A DNA stretch of 64,000 nucleotides from the NCBI GenBank assembly GCA_019448385.1, contig JAGTXO010000026.1:2501-66500 (forward strand), given 5' to 3'. Positions 2,857 through 45,443 of the stretch are shown here, in pieces; positions within the stretch are counted from its first letter, which is position 1; each line of letters begins with the position of its first letter. This stretch comes from Diacronema lutheri. Lineage: Eukaryota; Haptophyta; Pavlovophyceae; Pavlovales; Pavlovaceae. The notes under the pieces were generated by a model. It was not told the origin of the DNA, searched no databases, and saw nothing but the letters and a program-made list of their open reading frames with translations. Made by a program: the position numbers and the translations under genes.

Positions 2857-3936
2857 TCAGCGCGCACGGCCACAAGGGCGCGAGCAGCGCGCGACGGCGT
2901 GCGACGGCGCACCATCGTACGGCTTGACAAAGCCGTTCAAATATTCGAGGATGTCGGCCCGCTCGTCGAGCACACCAAGCGCCCGCCGCTCAAATTCGGC
3001 GTCGTCGATGCCGCAGAAGGTCGCAAAGTACCACGCCTTGTCGCACCGTGCGGGCAGCTGGCCGGTGCACAGCTTCTGCCACAGGCCGGCGAGGCCAAGA
3101 AACTGCGCGTTGGCAAGGTAGCGCAGCATCTCCGACTCGGTGCGCACTGCGAACGAGCGCGCGAGCTGCATCGGCAGCAGCTGCGCGCGCACCGCGCACG
3201 GCGAGGGCACACGCCACAGCGTGGGATGAGACGCCGGGCGAGCTGCCGCGCACATCGTGGGAAAGAATGCGCGCGCCATAAGGCGGGCGCAGGTGCGTGC
3301 GCGCGCAGCACGCACCGGCACGGCGTTGCGGCTGACGACGCTCATCCGGATGCCGTGCGCGAAGCAGAAGCCGTAGACCACGTCGGCTGCGGCCAGATCA
3401 AAGGCGTTGTTCTGCGACGTGTCGGGCGCAAAGCCAAACGGCGAAGCAGCGTCGGGCACGAGCCCGCCCTGAATGGACACGATGCGCACCTTGCGCAGAA
3501 CCTGCTCCGGCTGCGCGAGGACGACGTCTGCAAAGTCGCGCAGTCCCGAGATGAGCAGCATCGTGATCGCGCGCGGCGCGGCGCGCGCGAGCGTGCGCGC
3601 GAGCAGCACCTTGCCGTCGAGCAGGCGGGCAGCATCGACAGCGTCAAAGCCGCGCAGGTCGCATTCATGCGGCTGCTCCGCCGTCGCCACGCCAACTGAG
3701 CCCACGCCGACAGGCACCGCCGGCTCACCCACGCGGTCGAGGATGAGCCGCGCGAGCTGTGCGCGCCGTGCCGGCTGGCCGCCGCCGTTCGCGATCACGG
3801 CGGAGAGGCGGATGCGCCCTTGTCGGTGCGCGATCGCGAGCACAAGCAGCGCCTTAGCGTCGTCCGGATCGGGCCCCACGTCAGTGATCACCACGAACTC
3901 CGCTGGCCGAGATCGCGGGGCCCCGGAGCGCCACAT
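2857..3936 (-). CDS. Nucleoside hydrolase-like (IUNH superfamily) protein
   Basis: From the ATG at 3936 the protein begins with a short basic stretch and then FVVITDVGPDPDDAKALL. This matches the Asp-rich calcium-binding N-terminal motif of inosine/uridine-preferring nucleoside hydrolases (usual form DTDPGxDD). TMLLISGLRDFADVV and FAPDTSQNNAFDLAAADVVY also fit the fold. A phase-0 GT-AG intron is inferred at 3181-3315 (135 bp); removing it joins SRNAVP to LLPMQL and drops an Arg/Ala-rich stretch. Spliced length is about 314 residues, the usual size. Family members cleave N-glycosidic bonds of nucleosides, but the motif is a variant and the substrate cannot be told. It lies on the same strand as, and 608 bp downstream of, the H-NOX/TIR-like gene. 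Whether it handles products of that domain is speculation. Confidence 0.7.
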   Translation of the reverse strand: MWRSGAPRSRPAEFVVITDVGPDPDDAKALLVLAIAHRQGRIRLSAVIANGGGQPARRAQLARLILDRVGEPAVPVGVGSVGVATAEQPHECDLRGFDAVDAARLLDGKVLLARTLARAAPRAITMLLISGLRDFADVVLAQPEQVLRKVRIVSIQGGLVPDAASPFGFAPDTSQNNAFDLAAADVVYGFCFAHGIRMSVVSRNAVPVRAARARTCARLMARAFFPTMCAAARPASHPTLWRVPSPCAVRAQLLPMQLARSFAVRTESEMLRYLANAQFLGLAGLWQKLCTGQLPARCDKAWYFATFCGIDDAEFERRALGVLDERADILEYLNGFVKPYDGAPSHAVARCSRPCGRAR

Positions 3937-4370
3937 GGAGTCGCAGCACGGGCCTCAAAATACCATAATTATGGATGGATAACTACTGTGTTGCTCAAAG
4001 AGCGTGAATCGATCGCACAGTTTGAGCTCATCCCCGACGCGGCACCACGGGGTCGAATGGTATTGAGGTTTAAAAAAGTACCTGGTGCAGTTCCCTCGAT
4101 TGCGCGCGCACACGCGCTTACCGACGCCGAAGTGGCATTTCGCGCACCCGGACGGGCCGCTGCTGCCGGTGCGGCTCACGTGCGCGCGGCCGTGCGCGCG
4201 CATGGCGTCAACGTTCTGCTTGACGTCGTGTCGCGCGGCGGCGGCGCGCCCGAGCGGCTCGTGTGTAATGCGCCGCGCCGCCACGCCGCCGCGTGCGCGT
4301 TACGGCCGACTGGTGCGGTCATTGCGCGCGTGCCTGGCTGCACGGCGGACATCCGCCGTCATCGCCGCCG

Positions 4371-4420
<50 letters not shown>

Positions 4421-4544: not shown

Positions 4545-7326
4545 CTACGCGTGAAGCTCGCCCGCCTCCGCGCCGTCGTCTTCCTGGAGCGCCCAGCGTG
4601 CGATGCTTGTAGGTGGCATGACCTGCGCTCGCCTGCGCCTTTGAGGCGCCGACGCGGTCGTGTTGCCGCCATGATTGCTCGGCATGGCCGAGATCGAGTT
4701 CCATCGCCGGCTTGCGGGCACCGGCTGGATGAGCAAGCTTGGAAGCGACGGCTCACGGCGCCGGCTCGGCGTCAGAATCTGCCCATCCGCGCTGGTGTGA
4801 GGTTTGTTCGCATCGAGGTGCTCAGCCTTTGTTTCGGCTCCCATGTGCGAGCCCGCTGGTAAGCTCATCGTCTCGCCATGTGCTTGCACGACCTGCCCCT
4901 CGTGTGCATCGCCGACGGGCGCACCTTGCGCGATGTGGCGCGCAAACGCGCCATGCGCCGCGGCTTGCCAGTCGCCTGACGAGAGCGGGCTGGGCGATTT
5001 GAGGCCGAGGAACGCGGGCCGCACGGCGAGCGACCGGCTCGCGCTGAAGAGCGGCTTCAGCTCGTTTTGATACCACGAGTCGACGCGGCTGGCAAAGTGC
5101 GCTCGCCACGTTTTGCCACCGACCATCCAGCGCATGCGCACCACCACGCCATGCGCCTCTGCTGAAGCGTCTTGCGCGAGCCATACGGCCGGACGCGCGT
5201 GCGCGAGCACCTCGGCAAGCTGCTCAAAGCCCAAATCAGCTGCGAGGCGCGCCCACACGAGCAGGTCGCTCCCAGTCGAGGCACCTTCGCTGATAGGGCT
5301 CGTGCGCTTTGCGACGACGACGGCGACGTGCACGATTACAGCGAGCTGCACAAAGCGCTCAAAATGCTCGACCGACCAGTACATGGCCTCGATGCGCATG
5401 CGTACGAGCTTGAGATCGCTCGCATAATAAGTGTGCGCATGCGCGAGCTTGAAGCCGCGGATTGCGGCCACGTAACGCTGCAGCGTGCGCTCGGTGAGGA
5501 GGAAGTCAACGCACAGCTGCACGTGCTCCGCGTCGTGCATCACCAGGAAGAGCGCCCATTCGTACACGCACCTGGCTCAGCACGGCGCATGGCAGACCGA
5601 TGCGCGTGAGCGTGCCGCACGCAACGCGCGCGGCGCCGTGTGCGCGCCCGGGCGCACGATGCCGCCGCTGGCGCGCACCAGAGGCGCTCGAAAAAGTCCC
5701 ACGTGAAGAGCACGATCATCCCCTCGCACCGGCGCACGAATTGCTCGAGCAGCTCGATCGTCGGCACCATGATCGGGTGCTGCTGCGCGACGCAGCATTT
5801 GTCGACCCACAGCGTCACGTCCTGCCACCGCTCGATCGGCGCGGGCTTCTGCGCGAGCCGCGCGTCATCCGCCGCGGAGGAAGCACGACGCGCACGCTCG
5901 GGCGATGCAGCGGCAGGCGGCGCGCACGCCGGTGTGACGCCCGTCGCAAGCACGCGCGCGCGGCCAACGTGCCGCCGGCGCTCCCACACAACGTCACGCG
6001 CGGCCGACGCGAGCACGGCGGCCTTGACGTCTGCAAAGTCGAGTTTGGCGCCCATCAGCACGTGCCAGTCGGCCGGCGGCTGCCACGTGTGCGAGACGAA
6101 GCGTGTCGCAAAGCTAGCCGGCGCCGAGAGCTCGTAGTCGGCGATCGAGCCCACGTTGGTGCGCCAGAAAGCCGACGCACGCGCCATTTCGCCGACGTCG
6201 ACAAAGTCGGCAGCCACCTTGCCGCACGGCACGGCGCGCATGAGCGCCGCGCCTGGGTCGACAAGGCCGGGCAGCGTTAGGAGCAACTGGTCGAGCTGTT
6301 GCACGAGCGTCGGCTCCTTGACGCTGCACGGTGTGATGCTCGGCACATTGGAAGCGCGGCGCGCAACCCGGCCGAGCGACATCGTGCGGAGCGGCATCCA
6401 GCCTGCCGCCGCCGCCTCGCTCGCCGCCAAGTCGCTCGGTGAACGCGACCTGCGCGCGCTGGACAAGCGAGCGACGAAGGCTGCCGATGTGCTCCCACGC
6501 TGCAGCACGGGCGCCACACGCGCCCACCACGCCCATCGCGCGCGCGGCTGTGGCGCGGGTAGCGCGGGCGGTGCGCCTGCGCAACACGACTCGACGAGCG
6601 CGTGATGCCAGCCGCGAGACATGCGCACCTCGTGCGCCGTGCGCGCGCGGGCGGTGGGTGGTGTTGCAGGCGTCGCATTGCCGGCGGTGAGTGTGCACGC
6701 CCACGTTGCGTCAAAGTTGGTGTGCGGCACGCTCAGCCGGCGCATCTCGAGATGCGCACCCGTCTTGAGCCTCGCGACGGCGCGCACGACGCCCGCGGCG
6801 AATAGGGCGAACGCCGCGCCGCGGCTCGACGCGTACCTGGCGCGAGCGTGGGCGCGGCACGAGCGTGAATGAGAACCGCAGCTGGCCAAAATGACCCTGC
6901 GCGCGCGCGCGCACGGCCACCCGCCACGACGCACGAGATGACGAGCGTGCCGTTGGCCGCACGGCCGTCGACCTTGAGGATTGGAAAGTGTGCGCCGCGG
7001 TGCGTGCGCCACAAAGTGTGGTGCAGCGTGTTGACGTTGCGAAGCACTTCGTCGAGCGTCGCGCCCATCGCGTCAAGCATGCGCATGTGCCCCATCTCCG
7101 CGAGCCAGCCGACAAAATGCTCGCCGAGCGCGCCGAGCGCGGCGTCCGGCTCGAGGCCACGTGCAGCCGCCGATGCGCGGAAGAGCGCAAATGTCGTCGC
7201 GTCGGGGTAGTGCACGGCATCAAAGAGGGTATCCTCGTCAAACACGCCCGCCTCGCGCAACACCGAGCGCCACGCCCTCTCGTCGGGGACGAACGAGCGG
7301 AGGGCGAGATGCACGAGGCCGTGCAT
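4545..7326 (-). CDS. H-NOX (haem NO/O2-binding) domain fused to a TIR-like domain
   Basis: Exons on the minus strand are 7326-6935, 6836-5679 and 5571-4545, with phase-2 GT-AG introns of 98 and 107 bp, giving 858 residues. Residues 1-185 are an H-NOX (HNOB) domain: start MHGLVHLALR, YPDATTF, LGEHFVGWLAEMGH, proximal haem ligand His102 in NVNTLH, and the propionate-binding YxSxR motif as Y132, S134, R136. That motif appears only after the first intron is removed. Residues 377-530 are TIR-like: FVSHTW (377-382), WVDKCC (474-479), then FERLWCVYEWALF, created exactly at the second splice. Glu521 in WCVYE sits where TIR NADases keep their catalytic Glu. There is no guanylate cyclase domain, the usual eukaryotic partner of H-NOX. 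The C-terminal 300 residues are unassigned. The H-NOX call is firm. The second domain could instead be a HET-like relative of TIR, and NAD cleavage is inferred. Confidence 0.82.
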
Positions 7327-7867: not shown

Positions 7868-7996
7868 TCAGCACACGGCGCACTGGCAAATACACGCCGG
7901 GCTGCCGCCGAGCAGCATGCCGCGGTTTCGCCGCGAAACGCCAGCGCCGATCAGCAGGCCGCGCTCGACCTCCGCTACGCCAGCCGCCTCGTCGCT

Positions 7997-8049
<53 letters not shown>

Positions 8050-10102
8050 CCCCGCCCGCGTGCGCGACAAAGTCGAGTGTGATCGCCACCGTCTGCTCGA
8101 GGTGCGCGCGGCTGAGCGGCGCGCCGTCGCGCCGGCTGAGCGCCAGCGCGAGCTGCACGGCGTTCTTGATTTGCCGCCCGTTGAGCGCGTGCTGCGCGAG
8201 CTGGTCGACGCGCAGCTCGTCCTCGTCCGCGCCGGCCGCGTTGAGCAGGTTGGCCCAAACCTGCGCGCGCGCGTCGGCGCCGAGCGGCTCGTACTGCAGC
8301 GCGCACTGCACGCGCGACTGGAAAGCCGGATCGATCGAGCGCGCTCGATTGGATGTGAGGAAGAGCACTGCCGGGTAGTATTCAATCAAGCGCAGCATCA
8401 CGCACACCATCGCGTTCCGCACAAGCGCGTCCTTTGAGCGCCGCTCGAGCAGCATCTCCGCCTCGTCGATCAGCACGAGCGCGCCCCACGGCGCGCACAG
8501 CGCGAACACCTCGTTCAGCGCGCGCTCGAGCGCGTCGGCGCTCGCGCCGAGCTCGCCCATTGACACGACGTACAGCGGCCGGCGCAGCAGCTCGGCAATG
8601 GCCTCGGCGGTCAGCGTCTTGCCCACGCCCGGGGGGCCGTGCAGCAGAAAGACGGCGCCCTCGCCCTTCCCCGTGATCAGATCAGCGCCGCCGCCGCCGC
8701 CGCCGCCGCTGCCGCCGCCTGTACCGCCGCGTGCGCCCGCCGAGTGCAACACGAGCGCCTCGATCAGCCGCTTTCGCCCTGGCGGCAAGACGAGCTGCTC
8801 GAAGGCGCGCGCGTTGAAGGCCACTTCGCTCAGACCGTCGACGATCGCGACGCCCCAGCGCTTGGCGCCAAAAGAGAAGCCGGCGATGAGCGGCCACGCG
8901 GTCCAGCGCAGCTCGGCGGGCAGCGGCGTGCCAACGAGCAGCAGGCCGAGCTCGGCCGCGGCCGCATCTGCTGCGGTGGTCGGTGGTGGTGACGCCGACG
9001 TGCGGGCGCCGTCAGTGGCCGCTGGCTCGGCCGTGCCGGCGCGGCCGCGGCCGGCGTGCGCAACGGCGCGAAGCACGCCGGCGACCGCCTCGCTCGCCGT
9101 GCCCGGCAGCCGGCCCGCGTGCACGCCGCGCGCGAGCGCGGCCACCGTGTCGAGCATGGCACGGCCGGCGGCCGCGCGCGCCGGCGGCGCACCAGCCGCG
9201 CCCGGCGCGCTGACGGGCAAAAACGCAGCGGCTGTGTGCGCCATCAGCGTCGGTGCGGCAGCGGCGCGCTCGTAGGTGCGCCCGCGCGCTTCCAAACGCG
9301 CGCGCACGCCGTCGGTGACGGGCCCAAAGTCCGCGCCGGCCGCGGCGAGCGGCCGCTGAGCGACGAACGCACCAACGACGTGCGTCTGCTCGACGACGGC
9401 GAACGTGCCCCCGCCGATGGCGACGACGAACTCGAGCGCGGCGTAGAAGGCGGCGCCTTCGCCAAAGAGCGTCTTCCCGCGCGTGTAGTAGCATGCGCGG
9501 CACACCGACCCCGCCGCCACGCCGTGCAGCCCCGTCGAAATGCCGTGCTCGACGAGTTCGCGCCCGGGCGTGAAGAGCTCGCCGAGCGACGCGAAGTCGA
9601 CGCAGCCGTCGCGCACGAGGCGGCGCGCGTACGCAATCTCGACCGCATGCCTTGCTTCAACGTGCGCGATCAGCTCGTCCAATCCAGCCACCTCAACCGC
9701 CGGCGGCGGCGGCGCGCCGCCAGCGCCGCCCTTGTCGGCCACGCCGCCCAGCCGAGCGCCAAACGCCGACGCCTGCTGGAGGAGGCGGTGGGTGCCGAGG
9801 CGTATGCGCGTGGCATGCAGCCGCAGCGCCTCTTCATCGGCGCCCGCGTGCGGCGGCGCGAGCCGCACCGCCGCGTTGTACCGGTCGACGTCGTGCCGGA
9901 GCGCGCGCAGCAGCCCGAGCGCGTCGTAGAGCTGGCGCGCGTCGACGCGCACGACGCTGCCGCCGGTGCCATGCGTCGGGCGCGCGTTGGTGTACTTGCG
10001 CACGGCCGTCGCCAGATGAATCGCGTTGCCGCCGCGCTCGCGGAAAACCACCGTGTCGCCCTCGACGTCAAACGCCGCGCCGTCGTCCGCCCGCATTTTC
10101 AT
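7868..10102 (-). CDS. AAA+ ATPase with DUF7025-like N-terminal region
   Basis: A single open frame of about 744 residues from the ATG at 10102; another in-frame ATG at 10216 would add 38 Arg-rich residues and is less likely. The N-terminal half carries an LFTPGRELVEHG segment followed by a beta-rich region, as in the DUF7025 domain that precedes AAA modules in many fungal and algal ATPases. The AAA module has Walker A GPPGVGKT, Walker B ALVLIDEAE, a sensor-like FLTSNR and a C-terminal lid (GRQIKNAVQLAL). A GCC-repeat-coded glycine run (about 7999-8050) interrupts the tail. It lacks the M41 protease of FtsH-type enzymes and there is only one AAA module. Cellular role unknown. Confidence 0.8.
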
Positions 10103-10677
10103 TCGGGCGATGGCGTGGCGTGCCGTATGCCCATTGGTGGGTGCGCACTGCGCACTGCGCACTGCGCACGCTGGCACTCGCCGCCGCCTCGCTGTCCTAC
10201 GCCGCCGCCTCGTCATCCTCCGGATGGCGCGACAGGTAGGGTCGTGTGCGCCATTTCTGGACGAATGCACACCAGTTCAGGCACCTGCCCCAGCCCGCTG
10301 CACTCGCCGGCGCGCGGTCCCAGGTCCGCCGCCCTCGTGCAGCGTAGGCTCGCGCTTTGGGCCGGTACGCATGGGTCGCTCGTAGGCGCGGTGTGCCCGC
10401 GGCGGCGTCCGAGGCATGAGGGTGGCTCGGACGCTGATCGTCGCAGAGCGCGCCGTCTCGTCGCGGCGCGCTTCACCGCTGCCCGGAGGGCAAGGCGGCC
10501 AAAGAGGTGCGCAAGCCGCCATCACGCCCGCCTGTGCCCACACCGCGCACCAGCAGGAGCCAACCGGCGCAGCCGCCACTCGCGCGGCGGTTTGCTGCGC
10601 CCGAGCGTGAGCGGGCCGACCGTCCGCATTGTCGCCATCGATGGTGCCAGCCACCCCGTGCCGGCGCCCGCGCGCGC
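10103..10677. other. Intergenic region upstream of the AAA+ gene
   Basis: Lies between two minus-strand genes. At 10142-10169 a short 7-bp direct repeat (unit cgcactg, about four copies) sits 40-70 bp before the chosen AAA+ start, in the likely promoter. Open frames across the region are Arg/Ala/Pro-rich in every phase and show no domain. Confidence 0.4.
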
Positions 10678-43082: not shown

Positions 43083-45443
43083 ATGGCCGGGAGCGCGGGA
43101 GGCGGGGCGCGAGCGGCGCAGCTGCTCGCGTGCGCCGCGTGCGCCGCGTTCGGCCGCGCATCGGCTGCGCTGCCGCGCGCGCCCGTCGCGCCGGGCGCCG
43201 ACGGCGACGGCGCGTTCCCGCTGCCCTACCTCTTCGCCTATCCGGACCAGTACCCGCAGTCGGGCCGCTTCCCGGCCAACTTCACGTGGGGCGCCGGGAC
43301 GGCGGCGTACCAGGTCGAAGGCGGCTGGGACGCGGACGGCAAGGGCGCGTCGATCTGGGACACGTTCACCGGTACGGACGGCGCGCCGATCAACCCGGGG
43401 ATGGTCGACCGCGGCCAGACGGGCGCGATCGCGTGCGACAGCTACCACCGCGCGAAGGACGATGTCGCGCTGCTCGTGCGCCTTGGGCTCAGCGCGTACC
43501 GCTTCTCCATCTCGTGGCCGCGGCTGCTGCCCAACGGCACGCTCGTCATGTCGGGCGGCGCGCCCAATATGCCGGGCGTCGACTACTACAACGCGCTGAT
43601 CGACGAGCTGCTGCGCAACCGCATCACGCCGTACGTGACGCTCTACCACTGGGACCTGCCACAGGCGCTCCTGCACGACCCGTACGCGCAGCGCCCGTCG
43701 AGGGACAATTGGCGTGGCTGGCTCGATGACCGCCTGCCCGGCGCGTTTGCGCAGTACGCCGAGCTGTGCTTCTCGCTCTTCGGCGACCGCGTGAAGCACT
43801 GGATCACGCTCAACGAGCCATTCACCTTCGCCGTCTTGGGCCACTCGGGGCCGCATGCACCGTCGCTGTGCAACTGGGAGGAGACGCTCGGCGGCTGCTC
43901 TGGCGGCCCGCGCCCGGCCGCCGGCTGGGACGTGTACGTCGCCGGCCACCACGCGCTGCTCGCGCACGCGCTCGTGGCCAAGGTGTACCGCGAAAAGTAC
44001 CGCGCAGCGCAGGGCGGCGAGCTCGGTGTCGCGCTCAGCTCGTACTGGTACGAGCCGGCCTCGCACATGCGCGAGGACGTGGCCGCCGCCGAGCGCGCGC
44101 TCGCCTTCGAGCTCGGCTGGTTCGCTCAGCCGCTCACGCACGGCTCCTATCCGCGGCAGATGCGCGACAAGCTGGGGGCACGGCTGCCCGCCTTCTCGGC
44201 GGAGGAGGCGGCGCTGCTCGCCGGATCGACCGACTTTTTCGCGCTCAATTTGTACTCGGCGTTGCTCGTGCGCGACAAGCCGCCCGCGCCCGGCTACGGC
44301 GCGCCCGGCGGGGCGCCCGTCAGCCAGCGCGCCGACTGCGACTGCGAGACGAGCGCATCGGCAGCATGGCCGCGCTCCAACGCGACGTGGCTACGCTCCG
44401 TGCCGTGGGCGCTGCGCAAGATGCTGCGCCACGTGCACGCGCGTTACGCGCCCGCCGCCGTGTACGTGACCGAGAACGGCTGGGCCGACTCGGCCGCCTC
44501 CTTCCGCGAGGGCGCGCACGACGAGGGCCGAATCTCCTTCCTCGCCAACTACACCGCCGAGCTCTGGCGCGCGGCCAACGAGGACGGCGTGCCCGTGCGC
44601 GGCTACTTCGTCTGGTCGCTGCTCGACAAGTGCGCGCCGCGCCGCACGCGCCCACCACGCGCGGCGCGCGCGCCCCCGCCGACGCGCCGCGCGCGCGTTC
44701 GCGCGCGCGCGGCCGCGTTTGGGTCTGTGCGCTTTTGGCGTTTGGGTCTGTGCGCTTTTGGCGTTTGGGTCTGTGCGCTTTTGCGCGCAGCTTCGAGTGG
44801 GAGCACGGCTTCTCGCTGCGGTATGGCGTCACCTTTGTCGATTTTCACAGCGCGCGGCGCACGCGCTACGCAAAGACCTCCGCGTGCTGGCTTCGCGCGC
44901 TCGCTACGGGCAACGCGCTCGTGCCGCCCTCCGCCTTCGCGGAGGGTCTCTCGAGCCGCAGGGCAGCGCGCCGCGCGCCGCTCGACGTCGTGCTCGCCGG
45001 GAGGCACGCGCTGCCCGCGTGGATGCGGGTGAGGCGCGCGCGCGCCGCTGCGTGCCCACGCCGCACTCGGCCGGCGCCTTGCGCGTCCGCCGCGCGCCGC
45101 GCGATGGCGCCGCGAGCCCCCGGCGCTCGACGGCTGAGGCGCGCATCTATCTCGCGCGCAGGCGTGGGAGGCGGAGGGCGATGAGCTCGACCTGTGCGAC
45201 CCGGGCTTTTTCCTGCGCACGCCCTTTTCGATGGACTTCCTCGACTCGTTCGACTTTCTGTTCGCGCTGCTCGTCGTCGCGTGCGTGTGCGCGTGCGTCT
45301 ATGTCAATCTGTCCCTTCTCGCCGACCTCAAGCAGCTGCTCGTCAGCGCCGCTCGCGCCCAGACGCGCCGTGCAGTGTCCGTGCAGGCAGACGATGCGGA
45401 TGCGGACAGTTTGCGCCTCGCAGCCCGCGGGCGCGAGCCTTGA
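43083..45443 (+). CDS. Family 1 beta-glucosidase with C-terminal membrane anchor
   Basis: Exons 43083-44629, 44791-45028 and 45162-45443 give 688 residues. A signal peptide (AAQLLACAACAAFGRASA) is followed by the GH1 barrel: FTWGAGTAAYQVEGGWDADG, SWPRLLPNG, acid/base Glu in WITLNEP, nucleophile Glu in YVTENGW, and WSLLDNFEWEHGFSLRYG, where DNFEWEH is produced exactly by the first splice (phase 2). The last exon adds a linker and one membrane span (FLFALLVVACVCACVYV) with a cytosolic tail, as in lactase/klotho-type GH1 proteins. It should cleave beta-glucosides outside the cell or in a vacuole. Intron 1 carries a 23-bp triplicate. Head-to-head with the WD40 gene (47 bp). Confidence 0.93.
44715..44783 (+). 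repeat. Three perfect 23-bp repeats in an intron
   Basis: Units at 44715-44737, 44738-44760 and 44761-44783 contain gtttgggtctgtgcgc and end just before the acceptor at 44790. They are AT-richer than the rest of the intron. Confidence 0.95.

Follow-up and report, generated by a model that had tools for sequence, protein, structure and literature searches.

Bacterial H-NOX signalling works through kinase or cyclase partners, and the known TIR hydrolases of nicotinamide adenine dinucleotide (NAD) are joined to NLR, SAM/ARM or Argonaute partners; TIR enzymes are known to be activated when a pathogen is recognised, or by nucleotide ratios or nucleic acids. The gene described here, which joins an H-NOX haem domain to a TIR-like domain, lies in a 64,000-nucleotide stretch of the genome of Diacronema lutheri, a unicellular marine haptophyte belonging to the Pavlovales (contig JAGTXO010000026.1, positions 2,501 to 66,500 of the forward strand), referred to as the window. 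Directly established are the fusion, the conserved haem residues, an invariant WxxxE glutamate and the TIR-like fold of a modelled relative. The parts are known; their pairing is undescribed in the literature searched, which yielded no paper joining H-NOX with a TIR domain, nor heme nitric oxide (NO) binding with TIR in algae (subscription journals and preprints lay outside its scope).

The fusion gene occupies 7326-4545 of the window on the minus strand, in three exons (7326-6935, 6836-5679 and 5571-4545) whose spliced translation gives 858 codons and a protein of 858 amino acids. Exon 1 (6935..7326) encodes H-NOX residues 1-130, ends two bases into codon 131 and includes the haem ligand His102, which aligns with the LH of the beta1 chain of soluble guanylate cyclase (sGC); its frame alone matches the HNOB profile at E 2.6e-14. 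Intron 1 (6837..6934; 98 nucleotides, GTGCGT..CCAG, phase 2) is followed by the end of the H-NOX domain (6674..6836; Y132-x-S134-x-R136 and then a helix, to residue 185), by a linker motif conserved among relatives (6581..6610; WHHALVESCC, residues 207-216), and by the first part of the TIR-like domain (5679..6121), which contains SHTW, an insertion at about residues 418-466 and WVDKCC, runs up to two bases of W517, and is homologous to the modelled region of the relative P0019. Intron 2 (5572..5678; 107 nucleotides, GTGCGC..CCAG, phase 2) falls within the WCxxE codons. Beyond it the spliced translation and the alignment place the second part of the TIR-like domain (5292..5571; CVYE with Glu521, then helices, to residue 610) and a C-terminal region (4545..5291), partially conserved to about residue 700 and closing with a stop after a tail that varies among the paralogues.

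The H-NOX motif YASSR is restored once intron 1 is removed, and WCVYE once intron 2 is; with exons 1 and 2 joined, the HNOB score is 67 bits instead of 53.9 and the match runs to profile position 153 instead of 127. The junctions of the window gene are not a matter of chance, because two annotated D. lutheri paralogues, P0001 (hypothetical protein KFE25_004787, which splices exactly onto contig C11) and P0005, share both introns at identical codon and phase (between VI and SYAS, and between L and WCVYE). P0002 and P0004 hold the same joined motifs at the protein level, the exact splice walk having been completed for P0001 and P0005 only. The published D. lutheri gene models are described as products of BRAKER2 plus RNA-seq (PMC8379373). 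A first-pass annotation of the window, made from the letters alone, had placed the H-NOX and a second domain in one spliced frame and had held that YxSxR and WCVYE were formed at splice junctions, with chance unlikely; the 858-residue model and the fused relatives bear out the former and the shared introns the latter, and His102, Y132-x-S134-x-R136, SHTW (379-382), WVDKCC (474-479) and WCVYE (517-521) all lie where it had put them. The exon joins of the window gene are themselves predicted from sequence and paralogues, a point in favour of two separate neighbouring genes wrongly joined; the relatives nevertheless contradict such a misjoining, to which we give next to no credence. The annotated paralogues show the same fusion with the same introns, a divergent paralogue (C55:16465) reads from H-NOX through the TIR-like part in one unbroken frame, and the fusion is carried by P0026 and P0027, single proteins with MMETSP transcriptome names, and by a protein of Prorocentrum cordatum.

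The H-NOX part of this fused protein is readily recognized. A profile search that the first-pass annotation had called for matches HNOB (PF07700) to residues 3-153 at E 2.3e-18, the 67 bits lying above the Pfam cut-off of 25.5, and among solved structures the best matches are sGC beta1 chains (E 2.1e-12), then the cyanobacterial-type Alr2278 H-NOX (1.2e-9). Conservation was read from 27-row alignments, which left out eight of the 35 proteins that the searches returned: two are fragments of the window gene (P0009 and P0014), two run into the intron (P0003 and P0011), and four are partial or odd (P0015, P0030, P0034 and P0035). His102, Tyr132 and Arg136 are invariant in all 18 relatives reaching those columns; at the Ser134 position 17 of them have Ser and the remaining one has Thr. 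In the linker, His208 is conserved in all 21 aligned rows that have no gap at its column, and Cys216 in every row ungapped at its own; Cys215 is replaced by Ser in P0024, and P0023 is gapped at both cysteines.

A tyrosine at the distal H-NOX position stabilises O2. The position matching sGC Ile145, as read from the alignment, is Phe143 in the window protein and Leu, Phe or Val in 15, 3 and 1 relatives respectively (n=19; a twentieth row, P0006, was set aside, its piece there being misaligned linker). Because Phe, Leu or Val occupies this position in 19/19 relatives, O2 sensing by the window H-NOX is unlikely, and because the distal Tyr is absent a preference for NO is predicted; from what is known of the family we infer an NO-selective domain. 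The "NO- or O2-gated" effector proposed earlier thus keeps its H-NOX and TIR-like domain in one protein and loses its O2 option to the distal residue. H-NOX domains bind several gases, and the haem might sense O2, CO or redox state rather than NO, with the same output. In favour of this, an exon-by-exon search of the D. lutheri genome found no NO synthase (controls matched in two bacteria; not proof of absence). However, the distal residues and the sGC beta1 chains as nearest solved relatives oppose it, and we consider it very improbable. If the signal is NO, as we prefer, then with no NO synthase found it may come from nitrite reduction or from neighbours.

For the second part the argument runs through structure. 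The predicted model of P0019 has a strand-helix fold that aligns with solved TIR domains and falls in the TIR fold superfamily, with matches to plant RPP1 and RUN1, bacterial AbTir, ThsB-type and SPARTA TIR-APAZ proteins, and animal SARM1; its WxxxE glutamate is placed in the helix after a strand ending in FTW. Through this relative a TIR-like fold with a WxxxE glutamate is supported for the window protein (W517..E521), and the TIR or HET fold first suggested agrees with what was found, the model being that of P0019. The WxxxE glutamate is kept in 27 of 27 relatives, and none of the 27 departs from the WxxxE Trp, from WxDK or from the counterparts of Lys402 and Arg515. Such invariance seems beyond the needs of a pure scaffold, i.e. 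a TIR-like domain that is no enzyme and recruits partners by NO-driven TIR-TIR assembly, as in MyD88; the structural matches, moreover, include plant and bacterial TIRs too, and a scaffold appears unlikely.

The family profiles behave differently from the model of P0019. The TIR/HET profile search that had been proposed for the 858-residue protein yielded no match to Pfam TIR (PF01582, PF13676) or HET (PF06985) at E up to 5. Relatives match TIR_2 weakly (14/27; best fused relative 23.4 bits, cut-off 28), a TIR_2 search of the D. lutheri genome gave matches at other loci only, and a HET search of the genome gave none, nor any in its controls, so that its negative outcome carries little weight. 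Against the PDB, the TIR-like part as a single sequence drew one chance-level match (3i7a, E 0.07), and as a profile four weak ones, two to TIR proteins (IL1RAP, E 0.57; Cat1, E 2) and two unrelated (Shedu SduA, E 0.23; MEH1, E 2.9). All four proteins compared with NCBIfam weakly match the TIR-like protein FxsC (best E 0.0054, 16.7 bits against 130), and PADLOC returned nothing for four of five proteins and one weak PDC-S66 match (E 0.045).

These scores bear on another reading, which takes the second part for a HET-like effector of cell death whose chemistry is other than NAD cleavage. Its WIDKxCIxQ resembles the HET motif, a PF06985 match at E up to 1 is present in ten of the 27 members (the best at 0.0066), and P0035 is named HET domain-containing in its source record. 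The HET domain is, moreover, reported in PMC10197012 to be remotely homologous to TIR and sufficient for cell death in fungi, which lends the TIR/HET-like character extra interest. The printed HET scores are nevertheless under the Pfam cut-off, TIR_2 matches more members, and WxxxE and the structural matches (in a comparison that contained no solved HET structure) favour TIR; we regard a HET-like effector as quite unlikely and retain a TIR-like domain.

Three protein searches covered about 5.8 billion proteins, each scoring only the 8000 candidates that shared most words. Fourteen proteins not labelled D. lutheri pair a precomputed PF07700 with the TIR-like part (P0007, P0010, P0012, P0013, P0016, P0017, P0018, P0021, P0023, P0024, P0025, P0026, P0027 and P0033), and TIR-like identity to the window protein is at most 53% in the 12 that were compared. 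P0017 belongs to the dinoflagellate Prorocentrum cordatum; at least one further group of algae thus has the pairing, whose taxonomic breadth rests on D. lutheri, P. cordatum and transcriptome or metagenome proteins. Distances for the two domains were compared in 18 fusions, i.e. the 18 HNOB rows less P0024 and P0033 (short N-terminus) plus the window protein and one C55 paralogue, with P0021, slightly short N-terminally, retained. The two distance matrices correlate at r 0.94, a value reached in 0 of 5000 permutations, and the two trees concur in their main groups, P0012 and the long-branched C55 copy being placed differently. Because distances and main groups agree, the sequences fit a single ancient fusion whose two parts moved together, either by descent or by transfer between the two algal lineages. 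Two short peptide patterns, used on prokaryote genome contigs and viral contigs (few or no eukaryotes there), matched 26 genome-contig and 30 viral stretches; tblastn showed none of these to be related, and the two patterns thus found no relative of the TIR-like part in that set. P0035, also from P. cordatum, combines H-NOX-like and TIR-like remnants, recognized by eye, with a stretch that matches PF13967 and PF14703; it could be a decayed copy or the product of a chimeric gene model.

The D. lutheri genome searched (43.49 Mb in 103 contigs) contains at least 11 HNOB exon matches at no fewer than 10 loci. Eight H-NOX loci carry the TIR-like part: one on C28, two each on C11 and C102, one on C97, called from adjacent H-NOX and TIR-like matches on one strand, and a divergent pair on C55. 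The C55 paralogues lie on opposite strands at L043 (C55:14000-23900), and both are interrupted at the intron 2 site by a 126-nucleotide in-frame stretch, which may be a GC-AG intron if spliced like the other copies. No TIR-like match accompanies the H-NOX loci at C55:104728 and on C40. After the H-NOX gene without a TIR-like part at L044 (C40:163500-168500) come, by eye, a hydrophobic segment and HDLRSPL, a kinase-like motif; Pfam gave no confirmation of the histidine kinase suspected there. The spliced window protein has no cyclase match, nor does any H-NOX contig; the six PF00211 cyclase matches in the genome are on C32, C12, C83 and C5. TIR-like domains without H-NOX, bearing SHSW, WxDK and RLWCVxEL, also occur (L024, L025, L029-L033 and L035-L038, on C11, C20, C9, C89 and C46), several of them, by eye, after a long hydrophobic N-terminal part. 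Those on C9 are evenly spaced, and the two that were read, L029 and L030, are nearly identical. A telomere-linked expansion of the copies found no case in TTAGGG matches or contig ends: C11 and C28 have no TTAGGG among the matches listed, the 600-base ends of C11, C102 and C97 lack TTAGGG and CCCTAA, the C55 end has 11 CCCTAA, and C28:1-600 reads N.

It thus appears, at slightly better than an even chance in our judgment, that the window gene encodes a gas-sensing effector in one protein, whose haem H-NOX domain is selective for NO and is connected by a linker, in which a His is conserved and Cys-Cys usually present, to a TIR-fold domain bearing the WxxxE glutamate and to a helical C-terminal part. 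NO would bind the haem held by His102 and the H-NOX domain would then alter its shape; by analogy with sGC and TIR enzymes, we guess that inhibition is lifted or that the TIR-like domains assemble. Family knowledge suggests that the TIR-like domain would then use Glu521 to cleave NAD+ or a nucleotide related to it, and the outcome under NO stress might be a nucleotide signal or loss of NAD, in a role in stress, defence or death that is likewise a guess. More tentatively, and at a little under even chances, these proteins could form an undescribed conserved algal class in which NO directly gates a TIR-type NAD-consuming enzyme within one polypeptide, present in haptophytes and dinoflagellates, with at least eight copies in D. 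lutheri, analogous to the TIR immunity of plants and bacteria but triggered by a gas, and possibly driving a response to NO in marine phytoplankton, either stress signalling or programmed cell death. The fusion suggests an undescribed route for a gas signal to turn on an immune-type or cell-death-type enzyme. If true, it would connect nitric oxide by direct chemistry with the loss of NAD or with signalling by nucleotides and provide a eukaryotic H-NOX output other than cyclic GMP, and a link of NO to stress or death in phytoplankton would become testable with one purified protein.

Around the fusion gene, an AAA ATPase frame (7868-10276, minus strand; PF00004, E 1.5e-15) lies just upstream on the same strand. 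Downstream are a run of 47 C bases past the 3' end of the gene (4371-4417) and a nucleoside hydrolase-like frame (2857-3954, minus strand; PF01156, E 2.3e-5, under the cut-off), whose link to NAD breakdown would be speculative. Elsewhere in the window a Glycosyl hydrolase family 1 frame occupies 43083-45032 on the plus strand (PF00232, E 3.3e-118).

Among described systems, the beta1 H-NOX of sGC shares with the window protein its H-NOX sequence, proximal His, YxSxR and non-Tyr distal position; the output here, in contrast, is a TIR-like domain, with no cyclase match at the locus or on the H-NOX contigs. Bacterial H-NOX signalling is similar in that an H-NOX domain controls an output, and differs in output domain and lineage. 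Fungal HET proteins (PF06985) share a weak match around SHxW..WIDKxC, whereas the algal proteins score under the cut-off, possess WCxxE and have TIR structural matches. The TIR NAD hydrolases (RPP1, RUN1, AbTir, ThsB-type, SPARTA TIR-APAZ and SARM1) resemble the fusion in the fold, as modelled for a relative, and in the WxxxE glutamate after the FTW strand; unlike them, the algal protein has a sequence under the Pfam TIR cut-offs, WIDKxC and RLWC motifs, and a haem domain as its partner.
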